From positions 1-40,394 of IMG/VR virus record IMGVR_UViG_3300042908_000401: a stretch of DNA of 40,394 bases, one strand, 5' to 3'. The notes beneath the pieces are model-generated. The model saw only the letters and a list, made by a program, of their open reading frames with translations, made no database searches and was not told the DNA's origin. Below, piece by piece: positions 20,930-35,648 of this stretch. A program made the translations under genes and the position numbers. Within the stretch, counting starts at the first letter, position 1. Each line of letters begins with the position of its first letter. This DNA is from a virus.

Positions 20930-21436
20930 TTATGAGAAAATATCTGGCTGCTTCTCATTATCTACTGATTGCTTATCAGTTGATCGGCTATCAATAGCGC
21001 TTGTAATATCAATCATGTGTGAATCTATTACGTTTGACTGGTCGCTTATTGGTCGCAATCTTGCGCGCGCTTCAGCTAAAGTTGCGCCAATGTCTATTGT
21101 TTGCGTAACGTTTAAGTCTATTCGCTCGCCGTATTTCGACGCATACAATTTTGATGCAGTCCATTTGCGTATATCTATTTGATTTCTCGCTTTTGAAGGA
21201 TCAACATCAGAATCAGCGATTTCGATTGCATCATCAGCTATCAAATCCGCCTTTAATTCTAGTGCGCGAGCATAAGCGACGGCCGCCGCTTTATCACCTT
21301 GAAGGGCATAATTAAAATTCTGTGGGGTCATACCAAATTTTTTAACAGCGTTACGTAATGTAAGACCGTCTAAAATAGCGTCAATTACGCCATATATTTT
21401 TTCGCTGTCTTTTGATGCTGGAACTTTGTTTATCAT
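20930..21436 (-). CDS. terS: Terminase small subunit
   Basis: This protein starts MINKVPASKDSEKIYGVIDAI at the ATG at 21436 (168 aa; an in-frame TTG at 21460 is less likely). Residues 15-50 include an HTH-like segment LTLRNAVKKFGMTPQNFNYAL, and residues 60-110 contain the sequence ADLIADDAIEIADSDVDPSKARNQIDIRKWTASKLYASKYGERI (key words ADDAIEIAD, RNQIDIRKW, KYGER), typical of Sf6-type phage small terminase proteins that bind the packaging site. The C-terminal tail is low complexity and polar. It lies just upstream of terL in the same orientation. Confidence 0.82.
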   Translation of the reverse strand: MINKVPASKDSEKIYGVIDAILDGLTLRNAVKKFGMTPQNFNYALQGDKAAAVAYARALELKADLIADDAIEIADSDVDPSKARNQIDIRKWTASKLYASKYGERIDLNVTQTIDIGATLAEARARLRPISDQSNVIDSHMIDITSAIDSRSTDKQSVDNEKQPDIFS

Positions 21437-21460
21437 GTTGCACAAATAACACAGTAACAA

Positions 21461-21556
21461 AAAAGACGAAAGAATTTTATATTAGTTGTTGCGTAAAACG
21501 TAACATGTGATAGTTTTAGATCATAGCAAATCACGCAAACACACAAGGGGCTAATT
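21461..21556. promoter_or_regulatory. Divergent promoter region: late operon (minus) and accessory genes (plus)
   Basis: This gap lies between terS (minus) and the 35-aa ORF (plus). On the minus strand a TAATATAAAAT box near 21480 is a good -10 candidate for the late operon. On the plus strand GTTGCGTAAAACGTAACATGT (split here: GTTGCGTAAAACG and TAACATGT) at about 21486-21506 resembles the element before the Cro-like gene at 24159-24179. The GTAACA half-site is shared with the lysogeny region, so the phage repressor may act here also. Confidence 0.45.
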
Positions 21557-21664
21557 ATGAATAACGATATAACAAACGAAAGAGTGGAAAAAATAGGGGT
21601 CATTCTAGGAATTGCATTCTTAGCAATCGCCGCTTGCGCCGCTCCTATACTTTTATTTGCTTAA
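21557..21664 (+). CDS. 35-aa single-pass membrane peptide, uncharacterised
   Basis: ATG at 21557 follows an AAGGGG ribosome binding site. The peptide begins MNNDITNERVEKIGVI and then has a hydrophobic helix LGIAFLAIAACAAPILLFA ending at the C-terminus. It is too short to class. It could be a small holin-like, regulatory or exclusion peptide. Its position before the DUF7249-like gene and the preserved ribosome binding site support expression. Confidence 0.5.
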   Translation: MNNDITNERVEKIGVILGIAFLAIAACAAPILLFA

Positions 21665-21666
21665 AC

Positions 21667-21703
21667 TGGTGTGAAAAACGTAACAACCCTAAATTATGGA
21701 GCC
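21667..21703 (+). repeat. Repeated leader/regulatory element, copy 1
   Basis: The 25-base element TGGTGTGAAAAACGTAACAA plus CCCTA occupies 21667-21691 and occurs again at exactly 800 bp distance (22467-22491). Both copies lie 17-18 bases before a start codon and are followed by TGGAGCC as the ribosome binding site. It shares GTAACA with operator-like sites of the repressor region. It is likely a promoter or operator for the two accessory transcription units. Confidence 0.55.
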
Positions 21704-21708
21704 ATAAA

Positions 21709-21996
21709 ATGACAAACACAGATTACAACGGCTGGACTAACTATGCCACTTGGCGAGTTAATCTAGAAATATTTGACGGATTTGACCCGCATGACTGGTG
21801 GCAGGGTTCTTTTAAGGATGCGTATGATTTAGGACGCGCGCTTAAACATCACGTTGAAGACGTATTAGAGCACGAAACAGGAAACGCGGAAGGCTTGGCG
21901 TTTTCATACGCAATGGCGTTTTTGTCTGATGTTAATTGGACAGAGATTGCACAACACATAATCAAAGATAATTTAGATTTAGGAGAGGGCAAATGA
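21709..21996 (+). CDS. DUF7249-like protein, uncharacterised
   Basis: The ATG at 21709, 7 bases after GGAG, gives a 95-aa protein MTNTDYNGWTNYATWRVNLEIFDGFD (first 20: key words YNGWTNYATWRVNLEIFD). This start motif is common to small proteins of plasmids and phages grouped as DUF7249, for which no function is established. The rest is acidic and helical. The start at 21634 in the same frame is rejected because the ribosome binding site and family start support 21709. The stop overlaps the next gene by four bases (ATGA). Confidence 0.65.
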   Translation: MTNTDYNGWTNYATWRVNLEIFDGFDPHDWWQGSFKDAYDLGRALKHHVEDVLEHETGNAEGLAFSYAMAFLSDVNWTEIAQHIIKDNLDLGEGK

Positions 21997-22454
21997 AATC
22001 ACTTGAAAAATGGACTCGCCCAGATTCCTACATGGGCGCAGAATGGCCAGAATATTTTGTGTTTTTGGGCCAGCATAGAGACAGCGACAGTTTGTCCCGG
22101 TCGAATTTTATTTGCGGGTTAGAAAAAATCGGCGGGGAAAGTGACACAGTGCATATAGTCCATGAAAGTCATTGGGCCGTGGGGTGGGTTGAATGGATTG
22201 CAATCCACGAAAGCGACAGTCAGGCGCTCGAAAAGGCTAATGAGATTATGCGCCGGTTAGACGGCTATCCAGTCGTAAACGAAGACCATTGGTCGGAATT
22301 AGAATGGAACGAAGCATGCGAATATTGGGAAAGATTATCAGTCCGCGATAGGGCCGAATATTGCCAACGGGCTGGCTTATCAATATTCGCCGCGCGTCGC
22401 GATTACATGCCAAGTGACGACAGCGGAATGTTGATGGAATTATTGCGCGGGTAA
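21993..22454 (+). CDS. Accessory phage protein, uncharacterised
   Basis: This 153-aa protein begins MKSLEKWTRPDSYMGAEWPE and contains the segments YFVFLGQHRDSDSLSRSNF, WVEWIAIHESD and LDGYPVVNEDHWSELEWNEACEYWERLS. Proteins with the WVEWI and YPVVNEDHWSELE pattern are widespread in phages and plasmids but have no assigned function. It is coupled by ATGA overlap to the DUF7249-like gene. It may be an anti-host or anti-defence factor expressed early, but there is no direct evidence. Confidence 0.6.
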   Translation: MKSLEKWTRPDSYMGAEWPEYFVFLGQHRDSDSLSRSNFICGLEKIGGESDTVHIVHESHWAVGWVEWIAIHESDSQALEKANEIMRRLDGYPVVNEDHWSELEWNEACEYWERLSVRDRAEYCQRAGLSIFAARRDYMPSDDSGMLMELLRG

Positions 22455-22466
22455 TTTTGCCCGCAA

Positions 22467-22502
22467 TGGTGTGAAAAACGTAACAACCCTACATTTGGAG
22501 CC
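22467..22502 (+). repeat. Repeated leader/regulatory element, copy 2
   Basis: This is the second exact copy (22467-22491) of the 25-base element also found at 21667-21691, followed by TTGGAGCC and the ATG at 22509. The conservation over a non-coding stretch suggests selection, for example for a promoter with a repressor half-site GTAACA. Confidence 0.55.
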
Positions 22503-22508
22503 AAGCCA

Positions 22509-22850
22509 ATGTCCTATTATTTTGATCAAGTTTGGTCTTTCAAGACCGCTCGCTTTTCTTTAGACCTTTCTTTTGGTCCCGAAATTGACCCGCCTGACTG
22601 GGATTTTGAATCGGAAGACGAAAGGGCTGAACTATTCGAAAAAATCAATGATGGGCGCTTGCTCTATTTTTGCGCCCGTTGGCGGGTAAAACTAGACGGC
22701 GCAACAATCGCGGAAAACTATCTAGGTCAATGCTGCTATGAAAGCGCCGCAGATTTTATGAAAGACGGCTATCATAGAGACATGCTGGCAGAGACAATAC
22801 GCGAAGCGCGTCAGTCTCTAGCCAAGCGCCCGCGACTAAGAGCCGCCTGA
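22509..22850 (+). CDS. Accessory protein, uncharacterised
   Basis: This 113-aa protein starts MSYYFDQVWSFKTARFSLDLSF and is acidic in the first half (DPPDWDFESEDERAELFEKI) and basic at the C-terminus. The family resembles small phage proteins of unknown role encoded near regulators. It follows the second copy of the repeated leader and is followed by a strong rho-independent terminator at 22864-22890. Confidence 0.55.
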   Translation: MSYYFDQVWSFKTARFSLDLSFGPEIDPPDWDFESEDERAELFEKINDGRLLYFCARWRVKLDGATIAENYLGQCCYESAADFMKDGYHRDMLAETIREARQSLAKRPRLRAA

Positions 22851-22863
22851 TAATCAGCAATTA

Positions 22864-22890
22864 AAAAGCGCGGATTTAGCCCGCGCTTTT
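22864..22890 (+). terminator. Rho-independent terminator
   Basis: Perfect 10-bp stem AAAAGCGCGG / CCGCGCTTTT with a seven-base loop, followed by ATTTTG. It lies 13 bases after the stop of the 113-aa gene and closes the accessory transcription unit before the AT-rich candidate origin. The flanking A and T runs mean it may work on both strands. Confidence 0.8.
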
Positions 22891-22968
22891 ATTTTGCCCG
22901 ATAAAAATTCACGCAACTTTACGCCCATCAAAGCGAAAGGGCTATTAGTAAACGCTAGTAAACTAAAA

Positions 22969-23255
22969 GGTGGAATGGTGGAATGAAGGTGGAATATTTT
23001 TTATCTATATATATCAATATATTATATATATATATTCTACTATTCTATATATTCCAGTATAAAATAAACATCATATATAAAAATAAAACGTCATACACTG
23101 TAACAACTATTAGTTGTTACGATTTGTGCTTTAAAAATTTCCTATAGCTAACTGGCCTCGAAAACAGTGGAATAGGTGGAATGTCGGAATATTTAGCCAA
23201 TATCAATAAGTTAAAAACATTCCACTTCAGCAATTATTCCACCTTGAAGTGGAAT
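22969..23255. other. Candidate replication origin: [A/G]GTGGAAT iterons around AT-rich core
   Basis: No gene is seen from 22851 to 23308. Eight copies of [A/G]GTGGAAT occur: direct at 22969-22976, 22977-22984, 22988-22995, 23166-23173, 23175-23182 and 23248-23255, and inverted at 23219-23226 and 23236-23243. Between the two clusters lies an extreme AT-rich block (about 22996-23095) of alternating TA. This iteron plus unwinding-element design is typical of replication origins. The phage has its own primase-helicase and DNA polymerase. The alternative is a binding array for a transcription or partition factor. Confidence 0.6.
23100..23120. promoter_or_regulatory. Perfect 10-bp palindrome (operator candidate)
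   Basis: The arms GTAACAACTA and TAGTTGTTAC are perfect inverted repeats around one T. The GTAACA half-site is shared with the divergent regulatory region (24022-24034) and with the leaders at 21.67 and 22.47 kb. It is a plausible binding site for the CI-like repressor or an origin-binding protein. No nearby gene starts here, so a role in origin control is possible. Confidence 0.45.
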
Positions 23256-23308
23256 AACAACTTTACGCTCATTAAATAATGAATCTAAATTATTTTAAAT
23301 TATTTCAT

Positions 23309-23944
23309 TTAATTAGCCGGTTTCATCCAAATAATAGGTGACGCGCTTTTTAATTCGCTAATTTCTTCTTTGTTACATGTAAAATCAAGCAACTTATATT
23401 GCTTGGCTCTGCCAGTCGCTTGAACGTGACGCAACAATTTACGCCCATCATCAGTTTCAACGATGCAAAGACTGCCAACAGTCTTGTCGTGAACATAGCC
23501 TTGGGGGGCGTAATACAACAGCCAGCCATTTAAAGGCCCCATGTCCAACAGGCGCAGGGCAATCGTGTCGTCACCCGCTCTAGCTGGTCTAGTCACGCGG
23601 CGTTCAGTGGCGGATGCGGTTCCGCCTCTCTTCACAACGCCACTCTCATCGACATAGCCAACGACAGCCACATAAGGCGAGCGCTTAACGTCGCTCTTCT
23701 CATATCTAGATATGGGAGAAGTGGCGGCGGCTCTCTTTAAAATATCCTCGACAGGAACGCGCAAAATCTTGGCCAACCTACCGGCTTCTTCAGCCCGTAT
23801 GTTACGTTGCCCATTAATGATGCGTGAAACATCAGGACCATTCATATCCATAAGAGCGGCAAGGCTTCTATAAGTTAGATCACGTTCCTCTAATTTATTT
23901 TGAAACCATCTTTTGTTGCGCTCTGTTTCGTCCAGCCCGACCAT
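23309..23944 (-). CDS. CI-like lysogeny repressor (HTH plus S24-like C-terminus)
   Basis: This 211-aa protein has an XRE-type HTH at residues 20-70 (LTYRSLAALMDMNGPDVSRIINGQRNIRAEEAGRLAKIL; key words SLAALM, PDVSRI and EEAGRLAKIL) and a C-terminal region with a SH3-like S24-type fold signature. The usual S24 Ser/Lys catalytic pair is not obvious, so the repressor may not cleave itself. It faces the Cro-like gene across a 282-bp gap with palindromic TGTTACAGTAACA. This is the arrangement of a phage switch. It has a good GAAAGAG ribosome binding site, five bases before ATG. A C10 tract lies about 29 bases upstream of the start. Confidence 0.85.
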   Translation of the reverse strand: MVGLDETERNKRWFQNKLEERDLTYRSLAALMDMNGPDVSRIINGQRNIRAEEAGRLAKILRVPVEDILKRAAATSPISRYEKSDVKRSPYVAVVGYVDESGVVKRGGTASATERRVTRPARAGDDTIALRLLDMGPLNGWLLYYAPQGYVHDKTVGSLCIVETDDGRKLLRHVQATGRAKQYKLLDFTCNKEEISELKSASPIIWMKPAN

Positions 23945-24226
23945 GTTTACTCTTTCTTAACGAATTTATGGTGGGGGGGGGGCTGCTCGAAGAGAAAAGC
24001 CCTAACCCCTGCATTCGACTCTGTTACAGTAACACACCTTGATAGAGAAAACACAACAAAAATTAACGCGCGTTAAAAAGAATTAACCTTTTAGTATCCA
24101 TTTTGGCCAAATCGCGCATTTTTCCACATCAAGTGTAGGTATTTCTACTTGCGCTTTGTTGCAAAAACTGTAACATGTTTCGCATATTAACTATGATTCC
24201 TCATTTAGATTGAAGGTTCCGCAACG
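23945..24226. promoter_or_regulatory. Divergent lysogeny-switch control region
   Basis: This gap lies between the repressor and Cro-like genes. It contains a G10 run at 23973-23982 (C10 on the repressor strand), the palindrome TGTTACAGTAACA at 24022-24034 as operator candidate, and a plus-strand TTGCAA (24160) with an 18-base spacer and CATATT as a possible -35/-10 pair for the early operon. TGTAACATG lies inside that spacer, so repressor binding could block it. The ribosome binding site before 24227 is AAGG. Confidence 0.5.
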
Positions 24227-24634
24227 ATGCCGCGCGCAAGAAATCATGGGCAATTTGGATGCCCGACCTATGATCAAGCCAGAAAAATTGTTTCGCGCTT
24301 TGGCGGGGAAAGAAATTTAGCATTACTTATCGGATGTAACAGAATTAGCGTTTACCGCTGGTCCTATGCTCGCCCTTATGGGAGCGATGGACTGATCCCA
24401 ACAGCCCAAATTGACCGCATTAAAGACATTGCCCGGAGTGAGGGGATTGTCCTGACCGCGCAAGATTGGGAACCAAAACGAATCACTTATGACGACGCCC
24501 AACTCGCCGCGGTTAAGCAGGCTGCGGAGAAGGCCAAAGAACAGGCGGCGCAACGGGCGCTTGAGCGCGCAACTTTACGCCAAGACATAAACATAGCTGA
24601 AGAGACAGCCCTCGCACTTGCGGCAATCCTTTAA
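24227..24634 (+). CDS. Cro-like/HTH early regulator
   Basis: This 135-aa protein has a predicted HTH at residues 20-60 (IVSRFGGERNLALLIGCNRISVYRWSYARPYGSDGLIPTAQIDRIKDIA; key parts GGERNLALLIG, RISVYRW and IPTAQID). The GIVLTAQDWEP region is typical of regulators of this type in alphaproteobacterial prophages. The C-terminal half is a coiled-coil Ala/Glu/Arg-rich segment. It is the first gene of the plus-strand early operon and faces the repressor gene. Its stop overlaps the RuvC-like gene start. It may play Cro or CII roles, which is inference. Confidence 0.7.
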   Translation: MPRARNHGQFGCPTYDQARKIVSRFGGERNLALLIGCNRISVYRWSYARPYGSDGLIPTAQIDRIKDIARSEGIVLTAQDWEPKRITYDDAQLAAVKQAAEKAKEQAAQRALERATLRQDINIAEETALALAAIL

Positions 24635-25182
24635 TGGTTGCGTTGACGGCTTCAACCCCTTTGCGCGTTTTGGGCGTCGATCCTGGCCTTATGGGCGGAT
24701 GGGCGGTTGTTGACGCCAACGGCAATCTGTTTTCCGCAGGGTCGTTTCCGACGCATATAGTAAAAAAGAATGGAAAGAAGTCTTTACAGATTGATGGGCC
24801 AAACTTAGCGGCCATCCTAGACTTAACATCTAGCACTCACGCATTTGTTGAGAATGTCAGTAGCCGCCCCCGCCAGCAAGGGCAGTTTCAGTTTGGGGTG
24901 AATACGGGGATCATTCACGGCATTTTACATGCGTTGAACGTATCCTTGCACAAAGTATCGCCCGCCAGTTGGAAAGCCGTTTACGGGATTAAGCGGGCAG
25001 ACGATCAATCGAAAGCCGAAACAAAGACGCATGCTCGAAAGATCGCCGCGTCATTGTATCCGCAACACGCAAAACTATTCAGCCGCGTAAAAGATGATGG
25101 CGTTGCAGAGGCTACGCTCATTGCTCTCTACGGTTTGAACATGATTACAACGCCAACCGCAGGGGGAAGGGATGGGAACTAA
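24634..25182 (+). CDS. RuvC-like Holliday junction resolvase
   Basis: This 182-aa protein shows the RNase H-like RuvC fold: VLGVDPGLMGGWAVVD (D16) at the N-terminus, then FVENVSSRPRQG with the conserved Glu near residue 72, and DDGVAEATLIALYGL with Asp near residues 153-154. These are the metal-binding acids of RuvC-type junction-resolving nucleases. It likely trims branched DNA in replication or before packaging, or in recombination. It starts at TAATG overlapping the Cro-like stop and overlaps the next gene by 11 bases. Confidence 0.85.
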   Translation: MVALTASTPLRVLGVDPGLMGGWAVVDANGNLFSAGSFPTHIVKKNGKKSLQIDGPNLAAILDLTSSTHAFVENVSSRPRQQGQFQFGVNTGIIHGILHALNVSLHKVSPASWKAVYGIKRADDQSKAETKTHARKIAASLYPQHAKLFSRVKDDGVAEATLIALYGLNMITTPTAGGRDGN

Positions 25183-25510
25183 AGACACAACGCCGCCGCC
25201 AAAGCCGCAAATCGCATCAATTAAACAGCACACAGTTCGGGATATAACCACGATCTTGATGGAGCGCGCCAACGATTACGGAGGGTTTGAAGACGTGGCC
25301 TGTATATCTCAAAGCCTTAAATCAACGTTCCGCGTTTACGGTAAAATCAGGTGGCATCATATGCAGGATGATCAGAAAGAAGCGCTTGAAATGATTGCTT
25401 CTAAACTTGCCCGCATATTGAATGGCAACACAAACCATGAAGATTCTTGGCGAGACATAGCCGGATATGCAACACTTGTTGCGGATAGGTTGAAGGGCGT
25501 GAAGCGTTAA
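25172..25510 (+). CDS. DUF6378-like protein, uncharacterised
   Basis: This 112-aa protein contains ILMERANDYGGFEDVACISQSLK (key words LMERANDYGGF), then IRWHHMQDDQKEALEMIASKLARILNGNTNHEDSWRDIAGYATL, a pattern typical of the DUF6378 family found next to replication and recombination genes in phages. The conserved N-terminal acidic/Tyr-Gly segment and the EALEMIASKLARI helix give a nucleotide-pyrophosphohydrolase-like look, but no role is established. It overlaps the RuvC-like gene by 11 bases, so it is coupled to it. Confidence 0.75.
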   Translation: MGTKDTTPPPKPQIASIKQHTVRDITTILMERANDYGGFEDVACISQSLKSTFRVYGKIRWHHMQDDQKEALEMIASKLARILNGNTNHEDSWRDIAGYATLVADRLKGVKR

Positions 25511-25544
25511 GCCGCAAAGACATTTAAATTATGGAGCCAAACCC

Positions 25545-25802
25545 ATGAAAAACTTTACGTTTATCGTTGCATCAATTTTTATATTTTTGACTGCAACATC
25601 GACTATCGCCATGGCCGAAAGCCTGGAAAAAACGATGGATGATTATCAGCATCGCGTCGATCAATATTCAGCGTTTGGGCGGTCGATAAGCCCCCCGCCA
25701 TCAACGTATATTCCTGAGAGCCACGCGCCCGTAGCGCAGCCGTATCACTATCAGAATTTAGACGGCAAATCGGGCGATACATTTCTAACCCCGTATAACT
25801 GA
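25545..25802 (+). CDS. Small exported protein, uncharacterised
   Basis: This 85-aa protein has a Sec-type signal peptide (MKNFTFIVASIFIFLTATST then IAMAE, with a likely cleavage AMA-E) and a mature part of about 60 residues rich in Pro, Ser, Tyr and His, low in complexity. The ribosome binding site GGAGCC lies in a stretch AAATTATGGAGCC also found at 21690-21703 before the DUF7249-like gene. It lies in the replication operon beside a lipoprotein gene. A role in the cell envelope, such as superinfection exclusion in lysogens, is possible but not shown. Confidence 0.6.
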   Translation: MKNFTFIVASIFIFLTATSTIAMAESLEKTMDDYQHRVDQYSAFGRSISPPPSTYIPESHAPVAQPYHYQNLDGKSGDTFLTPYN

Positions 25803-25819
25803 ACATAAGGAGGTTAAAT

Positions 25820-25933
25820 ATGCCACGCCTGATTTGCGCCTTGTGCGTTGCGTTAATGCTAACGAGTTGCAGTACTGACCTTAAATATCTTGAATGCTTG
25901 GCCCGCGATAGGACGGCGAAGCCATGCCAATAG
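25820..25933 (+). CDS. 37-aa lipoprotein
   Basis: A strong AAGGAGG ribosome binding site lies six bases before the ATG at 25820. The peptide starts MPRLICALCVALMLTSC and has a lipobox LTSC at residues 14-17, then about 20 residues with two further Cys. It is thus a small lipoprotein. Its stop overlaps the next gene's start by ten bases. Bases 25847-25863 are an exact copy of the 17-bp GTTGCGTTAATGCTAAC motif found at 30036-30052, here inside the signal-peptide coding region. Confidence 0.6.
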   Translation: MPRLICALCVALMLTSCSTDLKYLECLARDRTAKPCQ

Positions 25934-26127
25934 CCGAAGCCAGCCAAAACAAACCAAAGACAAATCGGAAAATCGTGATTGGCGGTTTGTATGGATACGA
26001 AATTGAAGTGACGACGATTTGGATACCAGCAAATGCGCCGTCACGAAGCAGAGATTTAGGCGGGGGCGTTCGTCATATCCCGTTGTCACTTCCAAGATTG
26101 AAATGTTTGGAGAAGAACGATGATTAA
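25924..26127 (+). CDS. Small protein, uncharacterised
   Basis: This 67-aa basic protein (MPIAEASQNKPKTNRKIVIGG and following) has a central beta-like segment YGYEIEVTTIWIPA. It overlaps the lipoprotein gene stop by ten bases and its end overlaps the next gene by eight bases, consistent with an operon of small early genes. No family is recognised. Confidence 0.5.
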   Translation: MPIAEASQNKPKTNRKIVIGGLYGYEIEVTTIWIPANAPSRSRDLGGGVRHIPLSLPRLKCLEKNDD

Positions 26128-26338
26128 TTGGACTGAGGAAGCAATCGAAGCGGCGTTTCGGGCGCATATGGACCACTACCTTGAATCAAATGTTAGGCCC
26201 GGACCAATGGTTGAGCCTGATCCATTGGCGGCAATCAAGGACGCATTAGACGCCGCTGTGTTGGCTCAAGGGTTAGCCGTTCACGAAGAGGTAAAGCCAA
26301 AGACTAAATCTAAGATCATATTGTCAGAGGGATTTTAA
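26120..26338 (+). CDS. Small acidic protein, uncharacterised
   Basis: This 72-aa protein starts MINWTEEAIEAAFRAHMDHYL and is mainly helical, with a Lys-rich tail (KPKTKSKIILSEGF). The ATG overlaps the stop of the previous gene (ATG at 26120, stop at 26127). The next gene begins directly after its stop (TAAATG). Genes like it, with EEAIEAAFRAHM-type starts, are common in phages, but no role is known. Confidence 0.55.
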   Translation: MINWTEEAIEAAFRAHMDHYLESNVRPGPMVEPDPLAAIKDALDAAVLAQGLAVHEEVKPKTKSKIILSEGF

Positions 26339-26512
26339 ATGATCCCCATAGCGCCAGTTGTTTTGTTTGTCATTCATATCGGCGGGGCAACATTTGTCCC
26401 GTTCTATGACTATCAAGCCTGTGAGAAGGCGAGGACAGACTTAAAAAAACTCGACAAATCGTTAGTTACAAAATGCGTTCTGACCAAAATCGAAAAGCCG
26501 ATTAATGAGTGA
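26339..26512 (+). CDS. 57-aa membrane-anchored or exported peptide
   Basis: The ATG directly follows the TAA of the previous gene. The peptide begins MIPIAPVVLFVIHIGGATF, a hydrophobic segment that could be a signal anchor, then has YDYQACEKARTDLKKL and a second Cys near residue 46 (KCVL). The stop overlaps the helicase start by eight bases. Small proteins of this type with two Cys often lie in the periplasm. No known family is seen. Confidence 0.5.
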   Translation: MIPIAPVVLFVIHIGGATFVPFYDYQACEKARTDLKKLDKSLVTKCVLTKIEKPINE

Positions 26513-27881
26513 TTTGTTTCCATATCAAGAGACAGGGGCGGTATGGCTGACGACAAAACGTCACGCCTTGCTGGCGGATGAAATGGGCCTTGGTAAAAGC
26601 GCTCAAGTAATCCGCGCACTTGATTTGGTTAATGCGCAGAATGTTTTGGTTGTAGGGCCTGCGGTTTTGCGCCGGAACTGGATTGCGCAACTGGAACTGT
26701 TTTCGAAACGGGCTTGGAACGTCACCAATATAGAGACGGGGACAATAGACCCCAAGCCTGGGTTCAATGTCATTTCTTACGATTTGCTGACGAACGAGAG
26801 CCTGCGCAAGAAACTAAATTCTATGTCTTGGGACGTTTTGTGCCTTGACGAAGCTCATTATCTGAAAGAGCGGACAGCCAAAAGGACCAAGTTTGTTTAC
26901 GGGGCAGGGAAGTCGCGCCCTGGGTTAATGGAAAAAGCGGGCTTTGTGTGGAGACTGACTGGCACTCCAATAATGAATTACGCGGATGAATTGTGGACCC
27001 ATCTTAAGAGCATGGGCGTCGTCCAGGAATCTTATTGGGATTTTACATTTCGTTACTGCAAGGGATTTGACTCGACCTATGGCTACAAAATTACAGGCCA
27101 TAAGAATACAGAGGAATTAAAAACAATGCTTCGGCCAGTAATGTTAAGACGAAAAAAGGAAGACGTTTTACAGCAGTTGCCCCCGATATATTTTCAAAAC
27201 GTTGTTGTTGACCGTTCGCCTGTGGATTTGGACCCTTGGTTTATTGAAAACATTATGAACGTTAACGGCCAACAGAATTTTTTAGATAACATCAAGAGCA
27301 TGGATAGCACTTTAAAGACTGCGCTTGCTTCAGTGTTGGATCACTCTCACCCGAAATTTGATGACAGTCTGAACGTCTTGGACGGGTTCAAAGCCGCCAC
27401 CTCGACCATGCGGCGTTACATTGGCCACGCTAAATTGCCCAAAGCCCTGGATATTATCGAAGAGGAACTGGCGTCGGGCAAACTAAAGAAAGTCGTCATC
27501 TTCGCCATTCATCAGCAGATCATCGAATTAACGCGACAGAGGTTGCGCAAATATAAGCCGGTAACGTTGTATGGAAAAACGCCGGGAATAAAGCGGCATA
27601 TGAATATTGAACAATTTCAAAACGACGCCAAGACCAGAGTTTTTATCGGTCAAATTGTTTCGGCAGGGGCAGGGGTCACTCTCACAGCGGCCAATGAAGT
27701 TGTGTTTTTAGAATCAGATTGGGTTCCGGCAAATAACGCGCAGGCGTCTATGCGATGCCATCGAATTGGCCAAGAAAAACCAGTGCGCGTTCGCTTCTTC
27801 ACATGTGCAAATTCTGTGGATGAACAGATTGCAAATGTGTTGATAACTAAGACACGCGAAATCACAAAAATTGTTGACTAG
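26505..27881 (+). CDS. SNF2-family DNA helicase/translocase
   Basis: This 458-aa protein has all the superfamily 2 helicase motifs: Walker A ADEMGLGKSAQ (residues 24-34), motif II LDEAHYLK (about 112-119), motif III LTGTP, motif V SAGAGVTLTAANEV and motif VI QASMRCHRIGQ (about residues 412-423), with the Q-like PYQETGAVWL at residues 6-15. It is similar to short SMARCAL1/HARP-type SNF2 proteins found in phage replication modules. It probably remodels forks or removes proteins from DNA. It shares a replication operon with PolA, DUF2800 and DUF2815. Confidence 0.9.
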   Translation: MSDLFPYQETGAVWLTTKRHALLADEMGLGKSAQVIRALDLVNAQNVLVVGPAVLRRNWIAQLELFSKRAWNVTNIETGTIDPKPGFNVISYDLLTNESLRKKLNSMSWDVLCLDEAHYLKERTAKRTKFVYGAGKSRPGLMEKAGFVWRLTGTPIMNYADELWTHLKSMGVVQESYWDFTFRYCKGFDSTYGYKITGHKNTEELKTMLRPVMLRRKKEDVLQQLPPIYFQNVVVDRSPVDLDPWFIENIMNVNGQQNFLDNIKSMDSTLKTALASVLDHSHPKFDDSLNVLDGFKAATSTMRRYIGHAKLPKALDIIEEELASGKLKKVVIFAIHQQIIELTRQRLRKYKPVTLYGKTPGIKRHMNIEQFQNDAKTRVFIGQIVSAGAGVTLTAANEVVFLESDWVPANNAQASMRCHRIGQEKPVRVRFFTCANSVDEQIANVLITKTREITKIVD

Positions 27882-27884
27882 TGC

Positions 27885-27938
27885 GTTGCGTTAATCACAA
27901 CATAGTATAAGATCACAACAAATAACGGAGATTCAAAA
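27885..27938 (+). promoter_or_regulatory. Intergenic with partial GTTGCGTTAAT motif
   Basis: GTTGCGTTAAT (27885-27895) matches the first 11 bases of the 17-bp motif of 30036-30052 and is followed by TATAAG at 27907-27912 and CACAAC repeats. GGAGA lies upstream of the GTG start of the AT-hook gene. An internal promoter for the replication genes is possible. Confidence 0.35.
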
Positions 27939-28367
27939 GTGCAGATTACTTTCGACCCAACTAACCCGCGCGAAGTTGAACAGGTTTTGCGTTACTTAAT
28001 TGTGGGTGAATCCGAAGCCGCGGGCGTTACTAGCCTCTCCCCCGGCGACGGTGATGTGGAGGAAGCAGCGTCCGTTGGCTCCGACGTTGTTTCCTCCGCT
28101 GAAACTAAGAAGCGCGGACGCAAACCAAAGGCTGAAACTACGGGGCCAGAAGCGGTAAAATTAGAGCCGCTGCATGATCCAAAAGACGAAGACGTTTTGG
28201 ACATGAGCGTTTCAACATTGGAAGACGCTCGTAACGCTTTGCGACGGTTTACTGAAGCCAAAGGCATGACCGCAGCGATTGATCTTTTGAAATCGTTTGA
28301 CGTGTCTCGCGTGAGCGAATTGCCACCAATGGATTACGATAAATTTATTAAAAGCTGCGCAGCATGA
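27939..28367 (+). CDS. AT-hook-containing protein, uncharacterised
   Basis: This 142-aa protein has a GTG start with a GGAGA ribosome binding site nine bases upstream. It has a basic motif KKRGRKPKAE around residues 49-58, which is close to an AT-hook (minor-groove binding), and two helical segments before and after it. The acidic/helical C-terminal part (LEDARNALRRFTEAKGMTAAIDLLKSF) resembles proteins encoded before DUF2800 in replication modules. It may bind DNA at AT-rich sites such as the candidate origin. This is inference. The stop overlaps DUF2800's start (ATGA). Confidence 0.6.
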   Translation: MQITFDPTNPREVEQVLRYLIVGESEAAGVTSLSPGDGDVEEAASVGSDVVSSAETKKRGRKPKAETTGPEAVKLEPLHDPKDEDVLDMSVSTLEDARNALRRFTEAKGMTAAIDLLKSFDVSRVSELPPMDYDKFIKSCAA

Positions 28368-29464
28368 GCGAACACGCCAAACTTTCTCCGTCAAGCGGCG
28401 ACAGGTGGAAACATTGCCCTGGCTCTGTTCCGCTAAGTCGTGATTTGCCTGATCCTTCGCCATCGCCTTTCGCTGAAGAAGGGACCTTGATGCACGTGGT
28501 AGCAGCAGGGATTTTGTCGGGCGATACAGAAATAATCAAAGTAGGCGACGACGTTTTTGAAGCGATTGTTTTTTACGTTGATTATGTGCGCAGTCGCGTT
28601 GAAGAATCTAGCGTCTTGCATATAGAGACGCGGGTTAAATTAAACGATGATGTTTGGGGAACGACGGACGCCGCTGTTTGGAACCCGCGCACTGAGACGC
28701 TTGAGATTATAGATTTAAAAGGCGGCGCGGGTGTTGCTGTAGATGTCAAGGAAACAATACAACTTCCTATCTACGGCGTAGCAGCGCTTAAGACGTTTGG
28801 CTATCAGGCCAAGCGGGTCGTTTGCACTATCGTTCAACCTCGCTGCCCGCATTCTGACGGTCCCATACGAAGCATAACTTTCGATGTCGGGGAACTCTTA
28901 GAATTTAACGCGGACCTTGAAGACGCAATCGCTTTGGTGCGTGAAGCTGAACGCGCAAACGATTTAGAGCCGTATCTGCATCCGAAAGAAAAGGCATGCC
29001 GTTGGTGCAAGGCTGCTGCGTTTTGTCCCGCTCTTAAAGCAAAGGCTACGGCTATGGCTAAGAAAGTATTCACTCCGCAGCTACCATACAATCTCATTTC
29101 TTTGGCTGAGACGCTTGAGGAACTGCCGCTAATTGAAGCGTGGATAAAGAACGTTAGAGAATTTGCCTATCAAGAGGCAGAGCGTGGCGTAGAGATCCCC
29201 GGTCATAAACTGGTTGAGAAGCGCGCTTTGAGAAAATGGCGCAATGAAGGACTTGTCGAAGATGTGTTCGGCGGTCACGCAATAGACCTTTACGAAAAGA
29301 AACTGATTTCCCCGGCAGCGTTGGAAAAACTATTGCCGAAGGAAGAACGCGGCAAGCTGGATGAACTCACGGTTAAAGAGAGTTCCGGCCACGCGCTTGT
29401 GCATGAAAGTGACAAGCGACCAGCAATTAAAGTCGATGCAGCAACAGCATTTGCGAACTTGTGA
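28364..29464 (+). CDS. DUF2800 protein, Cas4/RecB-like nuclease
   Basis: This 366-aa protein starts MSEHAKLSPSSGDRWKHCPGS and has the features of DUF2800. It has an N-terminal Cys (WKHCPG), a PD-(D/E)XK-type core around EGTLMHVVA, GTTDAAVW, LEIIDLKGGAGV (D...DLK), QLPIYG and a C-terminal Cys cluster KACRWCKAAAFCPAL, which fits an iron-sulfur cluster as in Cas4 and AddB. It is a putative 5'-3' or recombination exonuclease. The stop lies 14 bases before the next gene's ATG, with AGGAG between. The nuclease activity is inferred from motif. Confidence 0.88.
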   Translation: MSEHAKLSPSSGDRWKHCPGSVPLSRDLPDPSPSPFAEEGTLMHVVAAGILSGDTEIIKVGDDVFEAIVFYVDYVRSRVEESSVLHIETRVKLNDDVWGTTDAAVWNPRTETLEIIDLKGGAGVAVDVKETIQLPIYGVAALKTFGYQAKRVVCTIVQPRCPHSDGPIRSITFDVGELLEFNADLEDAIALVREAERANDLEPYLHPKEKACRWCKAAAFCPALKAKATAMAKKVFTPQLPYNLISLAETLEELPLIEAWIKNVREFAYQEAERGVEIPGHKLVEKRALRKWRNEGLVEDVFGGHAIDLYEKKLISPAALEKLLPKEERGKLDELTVKESSGHALVHESDKRPAIKVDAATAFANL

Positions 29465-29478
29465 CAGGAGACACAGAT

Positions 29479-30033
29479 ATGAGTGAGAAGTTGATAACCC
29501 CCGAATTTAAAGCTGCATATTGTGGCATATTTCGCGCTACAGCGCCGCGCGAAAATCCAGAAGGCAAAAAGAAATACAGCATGCGCGCTGTGTTTCCGCC
29601 AAACAGCGACATTTCAGCAATGAAGGCGGCAGTTAAAACCGCTATCGCTGATAAGTGGGGCAACGCGCAGCCTAAGAATCTACGCCTACCTTTCCGTAAG
29701 AATGCGGATTTGGACAATCCTATCCCTGGCGTGGCGGACGACGCAATCATTTGCACTTTTAGCGCTAATGAAGATCGTCGCCCTGGCGTTGTCGATAAGA
29801 ACCTACAAGAGATTATAGACGAAACCGAAGTCTATTCGGGCGCATGGTTTAGAGCGCAAATTCGTCCATACGCATATGATGTGAGTTCAAACCGCGGCGT
29901 TGCGTTTGGCTTAGAGAATGTAATGAAAGTTCGGGATGATTCACCGTTAGGCTCTGGTCGTATCCCGGCTAACAAAGCATTTGAAGGGTTTGTGAAACCA
30001 TCGGACAGCGACGACGACGATATTTTGTCTTGA
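29479..30033 (+). CDS. DUF2815 protein, putative ssDNA-binding protein
   Basis: This protein is 184 aa when read from the ATG at 29479, which has AGGAG eight bases upstream; an in-frame GTG at 29461 is less likely. It has the DUF2815 features: ITPEFKAAYCGIFRATAPREN, YSMRAVFPP, GAWFRAQIRPYAYD, NRGVAFGLENVMKVRDD. These proteins always sit in replication modules beside DUF2800 and family A polymerase and are thought to bind ssDNA. The acidic end SDSDDDDILS resembles the acidic tail of SSB proteins. A hairpin terminator follows the stop. Confidence 0.87.
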   Translation: MSEKLITPEFKAAYCGIFRATAPRENPEGKKKYSMRAVFPPNSDISAMKAAVKTAIADKWGNAQPKNLRLPFRKNADLDNPIPGVADDAIICTFSANEDRRPGVVDKNLQEIIDETEVYSGAWFRAQIRPYAYDVSSNRGVAFGLENVMKVRDDSPLGSGRIPANKAFEGFVKPSDSDDDDILS

Positions 30034-30035
30034 GT

Positions 30036-30091: not shown

Positions 30092-32056
30092 ATGTCTATC
30101 CTATACGGTGACTTTGAAACATTTGGGAGCGTTGATCTGCGCGTCTGCGGCGCGGACAGCTACTCAAGGCACCATGACACGGGTGTTCATTGTTTCGGAT
30201 TTGCATTCGACAATGAGCCGACATATTTAATTAATTTTCATACTGACGAAATTCCTCTCGATCATCGTATCCTGCGACATGTAGCCAACGGCGGTGAGTT
30301 CGTAGCTCATAACGCTCCGTTTGAGCTTGATTTTTGGAACAATGTTTGTGTTCCGCGCATGGGTTGGCCCGAACTAAGGCCGGAACAATGTCGTTGCACA
30401 ATGGCGCAGTCTTACGCCATGGCCATCCCTGGTTCATTAGATGGCTCTGCGCGCGCGCTTGGAGTCAAACATCAGAAAGACCTTAAAGGCAGTCGCATGA
30501 TGTTAAAACTTGCGAGGCCAAAAGACGACGGTTCTTTTTGGAAATATCAAGACGACCCCGCCAAGTTTGAAATTCTTTTTAATTACTGCCGTCAAGACGT
30601 TGAAGTAGAGCGCGATCTTGACCGCCGCCAGATGCGTTTGTCCGCCAGAGAGCGAGACATGTGGCTTATTGATTACAGAATTAACAGGCGGGGGATACAA
30701 ATTGATCTGGATTCAGTCGAAAAAGCGATCCGCTTGGTGGAAAAAGAACATCAGCGACTTAACGGTAGCATGCTCCGACTTACAAACGGAGTCGTCGCAA
30801 AAACAACAGAAGTGCAACTGCTTGTCCAATGGATCAGACAACAGGGAGTTGCTATTGATGGGCTTTCTAAACGAAACGTCCTCGATGCCCTCGAAGGGGA
30901 TTTGCCGCCCGCTGTGCAGCAAGCTCTGGCTTTGCGAAAAGAAGGTAGCAAAACATCGACAGCGAAGCTAACAGCCATGCGCGAACGCGCTGGTTCTGAT
31001 GGCCGCGTCCGCGGGACAATGCAATTCCATGGTGCATCGACTGGCAGATGGAGTGGCAGGGGCATTCAGCCACAGAATCTAAGTCGCCCCCGTATCGGAA
31101 TAAAACAAGAAGACATTGACGATATGTTCGCCCACTTGGAGGACATAAATTATATCGACCTAATGCACGGGCCTGTAATGGACGCGATGTCAGACTGCGT
31201 TCGCGGCATGATTACAGCAGCGCCAGGAAATGAATTAATAGCAATGGATTTCTCCGCCGTTGAAGCCCGCGTATTGGCTTGGCTTGCTGGCGAAGAGAAA
31301 GTTTTAGATATTTTTAGAACTCATGGAAAAATATATGAGCATGCAGCGGCAGGGATATTCGGCAAATCGATTGAAAAAATTACGAAGGATGAGCGGCAGA
31401 TCGGTAAAGTCGCCGTTCTCGCGCTTGGCTATCAAGGCGGCGTTGGCGCGTTTCAATCAATGGCTAATATCTACGGCGTCCAAGTAGAAGACACACGCGC
31501 TGATAATATTAAAAAGGCTTGGCGCAATTCTCATAAAAACATTGTCACCTTTTGGCATGATCTTGAACATGCCGCGATAAATGCTGTTCTTTATGAAGGT
31601 AAGGTATTTACCGCGGGGGCGCAGGGTAGAGAGGTTCGTTTTAAAAAAGACGGGTCAATATTAATTTGCCAACTGCCAAGCAAGCGGAAGATTTGTTACC
31701 CGTTTGCCACTGTTAGAGAGACAGAAACACAGTGGGGCGATCTACGCCCAACGCTTTTCTATTACACATCATTCGGAACGAATTGGACAAAGATTTCTGG
31801 CTATGGCGGCTTGCTTTGCGAGAACGTCACCCAAGGCGCAGCCGCTTGTCTTTTACGCGGCGCACTCATTCGTCTTGAGGAAGCTGGCTACCCTGTCGTC
31901 TTTCACGCGCATGACGAAGCGGTTGTTGAAATTCCAGAAACAGCGCCAGCAAGCGCAATCAAAGAAGTCGAAGAACTTATGGCCGTAGTTCCTGATTGGG
32001 CGGAGGGATTGCCTCTTGCTGCTGAAGGATGGCGCGGGAAAAGATACAGAAAATGA
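30092..32056 (+). CDS. DNA polymerase, family A, with 3'-5' exonuclease domain
   Basis: This 654-aa protein replicates the phage genome. The N-terminal exonuclease has DFETF (D7, E9), EFVAHNAPFELDFW and YCRQDVEVERDL (about residues 164-175). The polymerase domain has motif A MDFSAVEARVLAW (about residue 384), motif B in ERQIGKVAVLALGYQGG (about residue 433) and motif C HAHDEAVVE (about residue 605). Length and order match phage polymerases found in DUF2800/DUF2815 modules rather than T7 gp5. No thioredoxin-binding insertion is obvious. The ATG at 30092 has only a weak ribosome binding site, so expression may be low. The stop overlaps the primase-helicase start by four bases (ATGA). Confidence 0.94.
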   Translation: MSILYGDFETFGSVDLRVCGADSYSRHHDTGVHCFGFAFDNEPTYLINFHTDEIPLDHRILRHVANGGEFVAHNAPFELDFWNNVCVPRMGWPELRPEQCRCTMAQSYAMAIPGSLDGSARALGVKHQKDLKGSRMMLKLARPKDDGSFWKYQDDPAKFEILFNYCRQDVEVERDLDRRQMRLSARERDMWLIDYRINRRGIQIDLDSVEKAIRLVEKEHQRLNGSMLRLTNGVVAKTTEVQLLVQWIRQQGVAIDGLSKRNVLDALEGDLPPAVQQALALRKEGSKTSTAKLTAMRERAGSDGRVRGTMQFHGASTGRWSGRGIQPQNLSRPRIGIKQEDIDDMFAHLEDINYIDLMHGPVMDAMSDCVRGMITAAPGNELIAMDFSAVEARVLAWLAGEEKVLDIFRTHGKIYEHAAAGIFGKSIEKITKDERQIGKVAVLALGYQGGVGAFQSMANIYGVQVEDTRADNIKKAWRNSHKNIVTFWHDLEHAAINAVLYEGKVFTAGAQGREVRFKKDGSILICQLPSKRKICYPFATVRETETQWGDLRPTLFYYTSFGTNWTKISGYGGLLCENVTQGAAACLLRGALIRLEEAGYPVVFHAHDEAVVEIPETAPASAIKEVEELMAVVPDWAEGLPLAAEGWRGKRYRK

Positions 32057-34197
32057 GCAAAGTTAAAACCGCTCTCGCACTGGCGACTGAAGGCTTTTAT
32101 GTTTTTCCGTTAGAAGTTAACGGAAAGAAGCCTCTTATTATGGACTTTCCGCGTCAATCATCGCGCGATCCATTGGTCATTCAAGATTGGTGGCGCGGGC
32201 GCAATTACAATATCGGAATCTATACTGGAAAGTTCAGAGATAATGAGGCGCTTGTAGTCGTTGATGTTGACGACAAAGCCGGAAAAAATGGTAGCCAAAC
32301 GCTTGCCGTTCTTGACATGGAAGGCAAAGAGTTTCCTGCCACAATGGAACAAACCACGCCAAGTGGCGGACGGCATTTAATTTATCAATCGACTTACGCC
32401 TGTAAACAAGGCGTCGAAGTCCTTGGCAACGGTTTAGATATTCGTAGCCATGGCGGCTACATTGTTGGCCCTGACAGTGAGATAGACGGTAAGCCGTATT
32501 CCTTAGTCGCCAACGTCAATAATATAAAACCCGCACCAAATTGGTTGCTTAACCGATTAGGCAAGAGCGTTGATGTAACTCCCCAAGCAAAGATCGTCCT
32601 TAAAGGGATTGACCCTGAGAAAGCCGAACAGCGCGCGATTAAATATCTCTCGACGCTAGAACCTACAGAACAAGGTAGCAGAAATGATACGGGCTACCGC
32701 GTTGCCGTTAAGCTGAAAGACCTTGGGTGTTCAGTCGATCAAACGTTTGGTTTGATGCTTGAGCATTGGGTTGTTGAACCGGCGCTTCCGCTGGAAGAGT
32801 TAGAGGCCGTTGTTCACTCCGCATTCAAATATGGAAAGGAGCCTCAAGGCGCAGCCGCGCCAGAGGCCATATTTCCTGCTGTTGAGGATGACGGAGTAGA
32901 GCATCCCGTTCATCAATTAAATAGCGATTTCTGTTTTATCAAAACTGGCGCTTTTATTTTGCAAGAAACAACGGATCATAAGCATCGTTACACAACGCAT
33001 CATCTAAGCCCGTTCGAATTTAACAAATGGTTTGCCAATAAGAAAATCACCATAGGCAAGAAAACCCGTTCCGTTTCAGAAGAATGGATGGAATGGGAAG
33101 ACAGGAGACAGTTTGATGGGGTTGTATTCGCGCCGCGGCAGGACATGGGGTCGCGCTGGTTCAATCTCTGGCGGGGGTTCACCGTCGAACCCGCCGAAAC
33201 CAGCGAACACCCATCAGTCAAACTTTTTCTTGAACACGCTCTTGTTAATGTTTGCGCGAACGATCCGAAATTATTTGGATGGCTCATGGCTTATTTCGCC
33301 CATGCGATACAAAGGCCGTGGGAAAAACCGCTTGTCGCCCTTGTCTTCAAGGGCAACAAAGGGACAGGCAAGAACGCATTGTTGGAGCGTTTCGGCGCGC
33401 TGTTGGGTCCGCATTTTTTAGTGGCCGATGATTCAAGGTATTTGCTTTCATCATTCAACAGTCATCTTGAGAGTTGTCTTTTCTTTGTTTTGGACGAAGC
33501 CTGTTGGGCTGGCGACAAACATGCGGAAGGCAAACTTAAAGGTTTGATCACAGGATCACAGCATAACATCGAACGCAAAGGTGCGGAGCCATATCGCGTT
33601 GATAATTTAACGCGCGTTGCAATCATTGGAAACGAGGATTGGCTAGTTCCGGCTTCTCAAGATGAACGTCGCTTTGCGGTTTTTAATGTTGGTAACGGCA
33701 GATTACAGGACCGCGAGTTCTTTAAATCAATGCGGGTTGGGATGGAGCAGGGCGGCTATAGCAATTTGCTCCGTTATTTTATGGATTACGATCTAAGTAA
33801 ATTTGATGTCAACGACGCGCCAAAGACTGAGGGTTTGTTTGAGCAAAAAGTTGAATCTTTAGAACCCGTCTCAGATTGGTGGTTCGAATGTCTCATGTCC
33901 AACAGTTTAATTGGCGGAGACTTTGAAGGCGATATGCCAAGAGAAATCCCATCAAACAGATTAATGAACGCTTTTATGCGCCGCATGAAAGTTAGAAACG
34001 TTCACAGCCGCATTAAAAACGAAAGCGGTTTCTTTAGAGCATTTAAACGCATTTGTCCCGGCTATGAGAAGGTGCGCGTTGCGAAAGGAAAGCATGAACC
34101 AACAGATTCTACTTACAAAGTTGAACTGCCGACTATTGAACAAATGAGACAGGATTTTAGCAAACACATGGGGCATGAAATAAAATGGGAACAGTAA
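32053..34197 (+). CDS. PrimPol-helicase (bifunctional primase/VapE-like protein)
   Basis: The ATG at 32053 overlaps the polymerase stop (ATGA) and gives 714 aa. An in-frame start at 32029 is less likely. The N-terminal part has features of the archaeo-eukaryotic PrimPol fold: YVFPLEVNGKKPL (residues 12-25 region), GIYTG, VVVDVDDKAG (metal-binding DVD) and TTPSGGRHLIY. The C-terminal part has an SF3/VapE-like ATPase: Walker A GNKGTGKNALL (about residues 432-442), Walker B FFVLDEACWAG (about 477-487), and a later TGSQHNIERKGAEPYRVDNLTRVAIIGNE (sensor-type) region. It should prime and unwind DNA at the origin. It ends inside the small HTH gene. Confidence 0.9.
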   Translation: MSKVKTALALATEGFYVFPLEVNGKKPLIMDFPRQSSRDPLVIQDWWRGRNYNIGIYTGKFRDNEALVVVDVDDKAGKNGSQTLAVLDMEGKEFPATMEQTTPSGGRHLIYQSTYACKQGVEVLGNGLDIRSHGGYIVGPDSEIDGKPYSLVANVNNIKPAPNWLLNRLGKSVDVTPQAKIVLKGIDPEKAEQRAIKYLSTLEPTEQGSRNDTGYRVAVKLKDLGCSVDQTFGLMLEHWVVEPALPLEELEAVVHSAFKYGKEPQGAAAPEAIFPAVEDDGVEHPVHQLNSDFCFIKTGAFILQETTDHKHRYTTHHLSPFEFNKWFANKKITIGKKTRSVSEEWMEWEDRRQFDGVVFAPRQDMGSRWFNLWRGFTVEPAETSEHPSVKLFLEHALVNVCANDPKLFGWLMAYFAHAIQRPWEKPLVALVFKGNKGTGKNALLERFGALLGPHFLVADDSRYLLSSFNSHLESCLFFVLDEACWAGDKHAEGKLKGLITGSQHNIERKGAEPYRVDNLTRVAIIGNEDWLVPASQDERRFAVFNVGNGRLQDREFFKSMRVGMEQGGYSNLLRYFMDYDLSKFDVNDAPKTEGLFEQKVESLEPVSDWWFECLMSNSLIGGDFEGDMPREIPSNRLMNAFMRRMKVRNVHSRIKNESGFFRAFKRICPGYEKVRVAKGKHEPTDSTYKVELPTIEQMRQDFSKHMGHEIKWEQ

Positions 34198-34718: not shown

Positions 34719-35368
34719 CACAACAAAATACGTCGCATGCGGTTATGGCGCAGCGCAACCCAAACTTGACTAAGGTTGATGACTTTCCAACGCCGCCTTG
34801 GGCGACCAGGGCGCTTGTCCAACATGTTTTACAAAAGACGATTGGACTTACAGACCTCCACAAAATGAGCGTTTGGGAACCGGCGTGTAATAGAGGCCAT
34901 ATGGCCAAGCCTCTGGCTGAGTATTTTGGGACAGTTTATGCGACTGATGTTGTCGATTACGGGTGGGAAGGCCAGCAGCAGGAATGGGATTACGTTTCGA
35001 CCATTATGCCGAATTGCATTGGCAACAGGGATGTTGATTGCGTAATCACCAACCCGCCATTTTCGAGAGCCGAAAAGTTCATCAAGAGGTCGATGTTTGT
35101 CCCCGGATCGCGCGTCGTGGCGATGCTTTGTCGGACGGCCATTCTTGAGAGCCACAAGCGCTATAAAAAAATCTTCAGCATTCATCCGCCCGCCTATGTC
35201 GCTCAGTTCGTGGAGCGAGTGCCAATGCTTCAAGGGCGCCTCGATCCCAAGGCGACAACCGCGACGGCTTACTGCTGGCTGGTATGGATTGTGGGGGTCA
35301 AAGATACTCGACTCATCTGGATACCGCCATGCCGGTCAACGCTCGAAAGGGGCGGCGATTACTCTTAA
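34715..35368 (+). CDS. Orphan DNA adenine (N6) methyltransferase
   Basis: This 217-aa protein has the SAM-binding motif I WEPACNRGHM (residues 54-63), an acidic motif II (ATDVVD, D78) and the catalytic motif IV NPPF (residues 113-116), which points to N6-adenine methylation. The N-terminus DDFPTPPWATRAL (22-34) is common in phage Dam-type proteins. No restriction enzyme gene lies nearby, so this is an orphan enzyme, probably protecting phage DNA or altering gene regulation. It lies next to attP. The target sequence cannot be predicted. Confidence 0.85.
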   Translation: MTQQNTSHAVMAQRNPNLTKVDDFPTPPWATRALVQHVLQKTIGLTDLHKMSVWEPACNRGHMAKPLAEYFGTVYATDVVDYGWEGQQQEWDYVSTIMPNCIGNRDVDCVITNPPFSRAEKFIKRSMFVPGSRVVAMLCRTAILESHKRYKKIFSIHPPAYVAQFVERVPMLQGRLDPKATTATAYCWLVWIVGVKDTRLIWIPPCRSTLERGGDYS

Positions 35369-35369
35369 A

Positions 35370-35395
35370 ATTTGCGACCAGTGTGCGACCAGCGA
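35370..35395 (+). repeat. attP arm-type repeat, left copy
   Basis: This 26-base repeat is identical to 35612-35637. It contains two tandem GCGACCAG-like boxes (GCGACCAGTGTGCGACCAGC). The two copies flank the tRNA-derived core and are most simply integrase arm-binding sites. It begins right after the methyltransferase stop. Confidence 0.7.
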
Positions 35396-35451
35396 CCTTT
35401 TTTGACCCTTGTGGAAAAATATTTTTTTGTATCTAAGTCTTTGATTTTGTT

Positions 35452-35498
35452 TGGTGCCGACTGAGGGATTCGAACCCCCGACCTACTGATTACAAATC
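35452..35498 (-). other. attP: attP core: 3' 47 bp of tRNA-Thr(TGT) gene
   Basis: On the minus strand this reads from the anticodon stem-loop (GATTTGTAATC, anticodon TGT, loop TTTGTAA) through a T-arm (GGGGG TTCGAAT CCCTC) to AGTCGGC and ACCA. Only positions 30-76 of a tRNA are present, so this is not a working gene. This is the usual identity segment of tRNA-targeted integration and would rebuild the host tRNA-Thr gene after insertion. An inverted repeat AGGTTA/TAACCT (35508-35524) lies next to it, possibly for IHF or Xis. Confidence 0.85.
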
Positions 35499-35611
35499 TG
35501 ACTTGACAGGTTAATTGCTAACCTCATAGGATCACGCAACATCACTGAAACAGTCATTTATCGCATTTCTGTGTAACGCGCAATCATCCCAAATATCGCT
35601 GTTTCACGAAG

Positions 35612-35637
35612 ATTTGCGACCAGTGTGCGACCAGCGA
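35612..35637 (+). repeat. attP arm-type repeat, right copy
   Basis: This is an identical copy of 35370-35395, ending 11 bases before the integrase ATG at 35649. The same GCGACCAG boxes are seen. Binding here could also auto-regulate the integrase promoter. Confidence 0.7.
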
Positions 35638-35648
35638 GGTTTGGGAAA

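Follow-up and report, generated by a model that had tools for sequence, protein, structure and literature searches.

Introduction

SaPI/PICI elements replicate from origins at which an SF3-type helicase initiator is paired with iterons, and the iteron words differ among elements (PMC6092414, PMC7581432). Primase-helicase fusions are known from several other systems. The P4 alpha protein carries a C-terminal winged helix that reads the origin repeats (PMC4234260; 1ka8), the NrS-1 PrimPol-helicase joins an AEP primase to an SF3 helicase (PMC8718748, PMC7102993), and pRN1 ORF904 and the BIP-1-type phages combine an AEP primase, an SF3 helicase, and a winged helix (PMC4234260).

Here, we analysed a DNA stretch of 40,394 bases (hereafter the window), which is a temperate phage. 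One of its intergenic spacers holds an array of short repeats beside a repressor gene. This array is probably a theta-type origin that is read, in the style of SaPI/PICI elements, by the PrimPol-SF3 protein of the phage, as judged from sequence comparison. We assign a probability of about 0.82 to the main reading, in which the array would be a replication origin composed of two six-iteron half-origins recognised by the winged helix of this protein.

Genome Organization and Replication Genes

The two ends of the window share an exact 127-bp overlap (1-127 and 40268-40394), which is probably the assembly k-mer overlap of a circular genome; thus, the genome map is circular and complete. Leftward genes up to 20769 are structural and terminase genes, and because terminase and tail proteins are encoded, the virion gene set is not the incomplete one of a satellite. 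Rightward replication genes span 24227-34197 and encode a RuvC-like resolvase, an SNF2-type helicase, a DUF2800 exonuclease, an Enc34-type SSB, PolA, and a PrimPol-DUF5906 protein, a full replication set that counts in favour of an origin. The first-pass annotation had set the locus apart from T7-type origins, which depend on a phage RNA polymerase, and no RNA polymerase match was found among the window proteins scanned (a subset of the ORFs).

The repressor gene (HTH_3, phrog_4; 23309..23944, minus strand) abuts the array with its 3′ end in the window and in the relatives G001, G005, G007, and G028. A Cro-like protein is encoded at 24227-24634 and the integrase at 35625-36752. Several other features were observed. 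Of the early proteins compared with G001, a 65-aa LuxR-type HTH protein (34390-34584) has diverged most (67% identity) and carries many changes in its recognition helix. The region 20930-22850 is mosaic, with TerS 70% and TerL 97% identical to G001, and the genes at 21634-22850 are largely replaced in relatives. A 2OG-Fe(II) oxygenase-type auxiliary gene lies at 38597-39220, close to the lysis genes.

The Iteron Array and Its AT-Rich Core

RGTGGAAT occurs eight times in the 40,394 bases, always inside 22969-23255 (six copies on the plus and two on the minus strand), compared with 2.2 copies on average and never more than 6 in 100 shuffles. These eight copies, two of them inverted and the first two directly tandem (22969-22984), had been noticed in the first-pass annotation, and all of this was borne out. 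The count was nevertheless an understatement, since four degenerate copies (23034, 23042, and 23051, all on the minus strand, and 23183 on the plus strand, GTCGGAAT) bring the total to twelve sites.

The sites run in the order +++ (A), --- (B), +++ (C), and - - + (D/E). Group A, which comprises the outer left sites, lies on the plus strand at 22969..22995 (starts 22969, 22977, and 22988; GGTGGAAT). Triplet B occupies 23034..23058 on the minus strand, within the AT core, with 8/9-bp spacing (starts 23034, 23042, and 23051; AGTAGAAT, TATAGAAT, and ACTGGAAT), while triplet C occupies 23166..23190 on the plus strand with 9/8-bp spacing (starts 23166, 23175, and 23183; AGTGGAAT, GGTGGAAT, and GTCGGAAT). 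The D/E iterons are found at 23219..23255, with sites at 23219 (minus), 23236 (minus), and 23248 (plus). Triplets B and C are inverted relative to each other and advance by 8 or 9 bp, at a B-to-C distance of 117 bp. The spacings from C3 to D (36 bp) and from D to the last site (29 bp) recur in several of the helicase-downstream arrays described below. Six sites per side and a near-mirror arrangement are seen directly in the array. A common TRGAAY core, recognised only after inspection of relatives, is enriched 11.7-fold in the array relative to the rest of the genome.

The twelve sites lie around the 60 bp of highest AT content in the genome. The AT-rich block reported at first is real: the 60 bp starting at 22993 are 92% AT, more than any other such stretch of the window, and the AT-rich core at 22993..23092 is a probable DNA-unwinding element. 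Between the two putative half-origins lies an interrupted palindrome (23100..23120), whose 10-bp arms (23100-23109 and 23111-23120) are exact, as originally described, and enclose a 1-nt loop; it is absent from G001, the nearest diverged relative. The surrounding stretch, 22851-23308, was correctly called gene-free, as it contains no ORF of ≥60 aa. The spacer sits between convergent genes, behind an intrinsic-terminator-like hairpin (22857..22897, plus strand), an inverted repeat that ends the rightward gene 22509-22850 and coincides with a module boundary. A search of Rfam for known RNA elements gave sub-threshold matches alone, at this hairpin.

GC skew had been suggested as a check of the origin. 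Its minimum lies 2.5 kb from the array in the window, within 1-2.5 kb of it in 5 of 7 genomes, and at distances of 6 and 16 kb in the remaining two. The skew is compatible with an origin, but its minimum is off the array and tracks gene orientation, and it was dropped as proof because of this confounding.

Conservation of the Array in Related Phages

A near-identical phage, L005, has the array in common with the window. Homology between the two stops at 22863, in the terminator hairpin region; the array, the repressor, and the sequence into the replication genes form one module of 98% identity, whereas the terS side is 84% identical. G001 is more informative about constraint. Its PrimPol is 90% identical and synonymous divergence is near 1 in many early genes. 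The positions of triplets B and C are held, with the same 8/9-bp spacing in B, while the words shift from GTGGAAT towards CTAGAAT; 63 bp of the AT core ending at 23054 are invariant in an aligned spacer that is 67% identical overall. Because the triplet positions and this 63-bp core are kept as the words change, selection appears to act on array position, AT core, and sites, with the word apparently drifting as a set.

A PrimPol profile search yielded about 30 clearly related phage contigs, most of which were obtained whole or nearly whole. Relatives with an array in the same spacer, which lies directly at the repressor 3′ end or one gene beyond, have PrimPols 47-90% identical to that of the window, and their words are different yet related (CTAGAAT, TAGAAT, ACTAGAAC, and TAGAAC). 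In G001, G005, G007, G012, and G028, the top TRGAAY cluster contains 6-15 sites versus 2-5 for the next best and coincides with the AT-richest 60 bp of the genome; its distance to the repressor is about 500 bp in G012 and 3-53 bp in the other four. G007 closely matches the window layout, with inverted triplets 118 bp apart and 9/9 spacing in triplet B (the B-to-C distance is 109 bp in G001), and a similar arrangement, with the words TAGAACA/TGGAACA, occurs at L106, a locus from a bacterial genome bin. Other words are used in G019, G003, and G031, and many PrimPol relatives, such as G008, G013, and G022, showed no clear array by these scans; by these methods, the array rule is not universal among PrimPol relatives. 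The expectation that GTGGAAT arrays would recur in the same spacer of relatives therefore stood for the layout and the AT core and failed for the literal word, which drifts to CTAGAAT, TAGAAT, or TAGAAC.

No DNA match was found among named phages. The best protein relative is MW202898, which has an AT-rich block just 3′ of its PrimPol and no clear TRGAAY array. In another relative, a long noncoding tandem run of TTGTTTA heptamers was observed (L082; record G023, 40440-40600).

Arrays Downstream of DUF5906 Helicase Genes

A first scan of genome contigs for related loci found none, and a second scan with a deeper alignment gave 78, mostly DUF5906 helicases of about 30-49% identity. In 32 of 55 testable loci, the first 600 bp 3′ of the DUF5906 SF3 helicase match contain an iteron array, compared with 0/53, 0/47, 0/48, and 1/55 control segments. 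The words include GGTTGGAC, GGTGGGAC, CCTAGAC, and GTAGGAC. Tandem arrays in L015, L016, and L024 were set aside, as they resemble repetitive coding sequence.

Many of these arrays have a mirror-image 6+6 geometry, in which the left half consists of an outer pair, one inverted site, and a triplet at 9-bp steps, followed by a gap of 63-103 bp, and the right half of a triplet, then a single inverted site some 36 bp further, and finally a pair. Compared with this template, 8 of the 12 window sites fit when orientation is considered and 10 of 12 when it is not, the outer left sites being oriented opposite to the template. No random placement in 20,000 equalled the fit, and when the gaps and orientations of the window itself were shuffled, p was 0.0004 (oriented) and 0.0002 (unoriented). 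In L004 (1986-2290), twelve GTTGGACG iterons in both orientations lie directly 3′ of a PrimPol-related helicase gene. The L132 locus (Microvirga solisilvae) belongs to a prophage that has terminase and portal genes, and a prophage of Methylobacterium (L121) likewise carries the downstream array; in L132, as well as in L117 and L125, the array lies beside a DUF5906 helicase in which a Prim-Pol domain was not found.

It is this position of the distant arrays, directly downstream of the DUF5906 SF3 gene, that ties the array of the window to its PrimPol-SF3 protein. What the window protein has in common with the DUF5906 helicases is the SF3 helicase together with its C-terminal domain and, since this part is shared with array-linked helicases, it is likely to be what reads the iterons. 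The initial proposal of a replication origin is thus supported by the iteron and AT-core layout kept in relatives and by the placement of distant arrays at the helicase gene.

The Proposed Initiator

The proposed initiator (32053..34197, plus strand) consists of an AEP PrimPol domain, a DUF5906 SF3 helicase, and a predicted C-terminal winged helix, and its gene lies 8.8 kb from the array. Its start was set at 32053 because of a stop upstream of this position in G001. The AlphaFold2 model is good (mean pLDDT 86). The closest structural match of its helicase part is the NrS-1 C-terminal region (Z 27), while the SaPI5 primase-helicase matches by fold, not sequence, over model residues 270-687 (Z 19.1). 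The C-terminal 129 residues (about 586-714) are predicted to form a winged helix. Matches to this domain in isolation are weak (Z ≤6), although many are themselves winged helices, including 1ka8 (Z 4.8) and Orc/Cdc6 domains; a Foldseek search with it returned no match at E ≤ 0.001.

Between the window and G001, 7 of 225 residues are substituted in the helicase (380-604) and 23 of 110 in the C-terminal part (605-714). This excess (p 6e-5 against the rest) parallels the changed word. Such divergence would look like the pattern expected of coevolution with the word, which two phages cannot prove.

Alternative Explanations

Three proteins, the PrimPol-helicase, an AT-hook protein, and the Cro-like protein, were put forward as binders in the first-pass annotation; on sequence evidence, the PrimPol-helicase appears to be the best candidate, and nothing specific favours either of the others. 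It nonetheless may be that the origin is real and its iterons are read by another protein, such as the Cro-like protein (24227-24634), the LuxR-type protein (34390-34584), or some other factor, which recruits PrimPol. We consider this unlikely. In its favour, the Cro-like gene is present in most relatives, and the LuxR-like protein is strongly diverged in G001, as noted above (67% identity), yet the distant arrays directly follow the 3′ end of the helicase gene itself. The LuxR-like protein was rejected as a general binder, as its gene has no tblastn homolog in the other array-bearing relatives.

NrS-1 PrimPol initiates efficiently at GTGG (PMC8718748), and both it and pRN1 ORF904 recognise GTG-type sites. 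The window word, which contains GTGG, could accordingly be a single-strand priming signal for the PrimPol domain rather than a duplex iteron. This explanation has rather poor prospects: GTGG is gone from most sites in relatives with CTAGAAT or TAGAAC, arrays accompany DUF5906 helicases without a detected Prim-Pol domain (L117, L125, and L132), and the fixed orientation and spacing fit assembly on duplex DNA. A dual use of the words, as iterons and as priming signals, is possible.

Small terminases can bind repeat arrays, and terS and the array are 1.2-2.0 kb apart in six genomes; a packaging (pac) site is therefore conceivable, although improbable. Usual pac or cos sites differ in being in or beside terS. 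Furthermore, the array of L005 belongs to the 98% identical replication-side module and not to the 84% identical terS side, distant arrays are placed at the helicase gene, and the AT core suggests melting. Both the packaging and the priming explanations are weaker than that of an origin.

An operator or partition site is very improbable. The array does adjoin the repressor gene, but at its 3′ end, between convergent genes, and the likely promoter side (23945-24226) contains no copy of the word; with respect to partition, no ParA/ParB-type match was found among the proteins scanned, and the phage has an integrase.

Finally, an attP with the palindrome as crossover core and the GTGGAAT words as arm-type sites is scarcely credible and was rejected. 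Integrase arm sites can occur as triplets, and the palindrome (GTAACAA-CTATTAG-TTGTTAC) is shaped like the core of a tyrosine-recombinase site. However, the palindrome is lost in G001, and arrays of this type adjoin helicase genes in other phages. An attP is located at the integrase and has sequence in common with a host attB, which is often a tRNA; the array does not lie there, and that place is taken by a separate attP directly upstream of int, kept in G001. Within this candidate attP region (35367..35642), two arm-type repeats (GCGACCAG; GCGACCAGTGTGCGACCAGCGA) enclose the 3′ part of a tRNA-Thr-like sequence (~35448-35500). A similar region was observed in L002, and G034 has another tRNA-like sequence beside int.

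A Model for the Proposed Origin

With regard to mechanism, we infer binding by PrimPol, double-hexamer loading, and bidirectional replication. The twelve iterons would form two half-origins of six that flank a central stretch, and the AT-rich unwinding element would lie to the left of this stretch. Recognition of the iterons would fall to the C-terminal winged helix of the PrimPol-SF3 protein, and each half-origin would load one helicase hexamer, the two hexamers facing opposite ways. The AT core would then melt and the PrimPol domain prime, after which the phage PolA and SSB would extend two diverging forks.

A broader proposal, for and against which we see even odds, is that PrimPol-SF3 phages and DUF5906-helicase prophages share a widespread origin class. 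In this class, a 6+6 lattice would position opposed SF3 hexamers, the geometry would be held while word and winged helix co-diverge, and the origin would have moved to the repressor gene in the present lineage. Such a class would offer dozens of natural word/initiator pairs on a fixed lattice. Comparing these pairs and making simple swaps between them could decode initiator specificity and helicase loading, and the layout would supply a rule for finding origins in such phages.

Comparison with Known Origins

Among primase-helicase systems, P4 alpha has a Toprim/DnaG-like primase, unlike the Prim-Pol (AEP) domain of the window protein, and the similarity to 1ka8 is weak (Z 4.8). The NrS-1 genome has been described with two copies of an 8-nt recognition sequence and no iteron array, and the proposed origin of the pRN1/BIP-1 type is a large stem-loop 3′ of the gene (PMC4234260). 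A SaPI/PICI-like label is preferred because known SaPI/PICI origins pair an SF3 initiator with iterons, whereas pRN1-type systems were proposed to use stem-loops (PMC4234260).

The proposed initiator of the window is an SF3 helicase related to SaPI Rep by fold rather than by sequence (DUF5906). In contrast to SaPI/PICI elements, the window is a complete tailed phage that encodes its own PolA, and its helicase is fused to an AEP PrimPol. An origin directly 3′ of the initiator gene, as in these elements, is found in the DUF5906 relatives, whereas the putative origin of the window lies 8.8 kb from the gene and beside the repressor. On these comparisons, the array is a putative origin of the SaPI/PICI-like kind that occurs in a full phage lineage and is displaced from its initiator gene.
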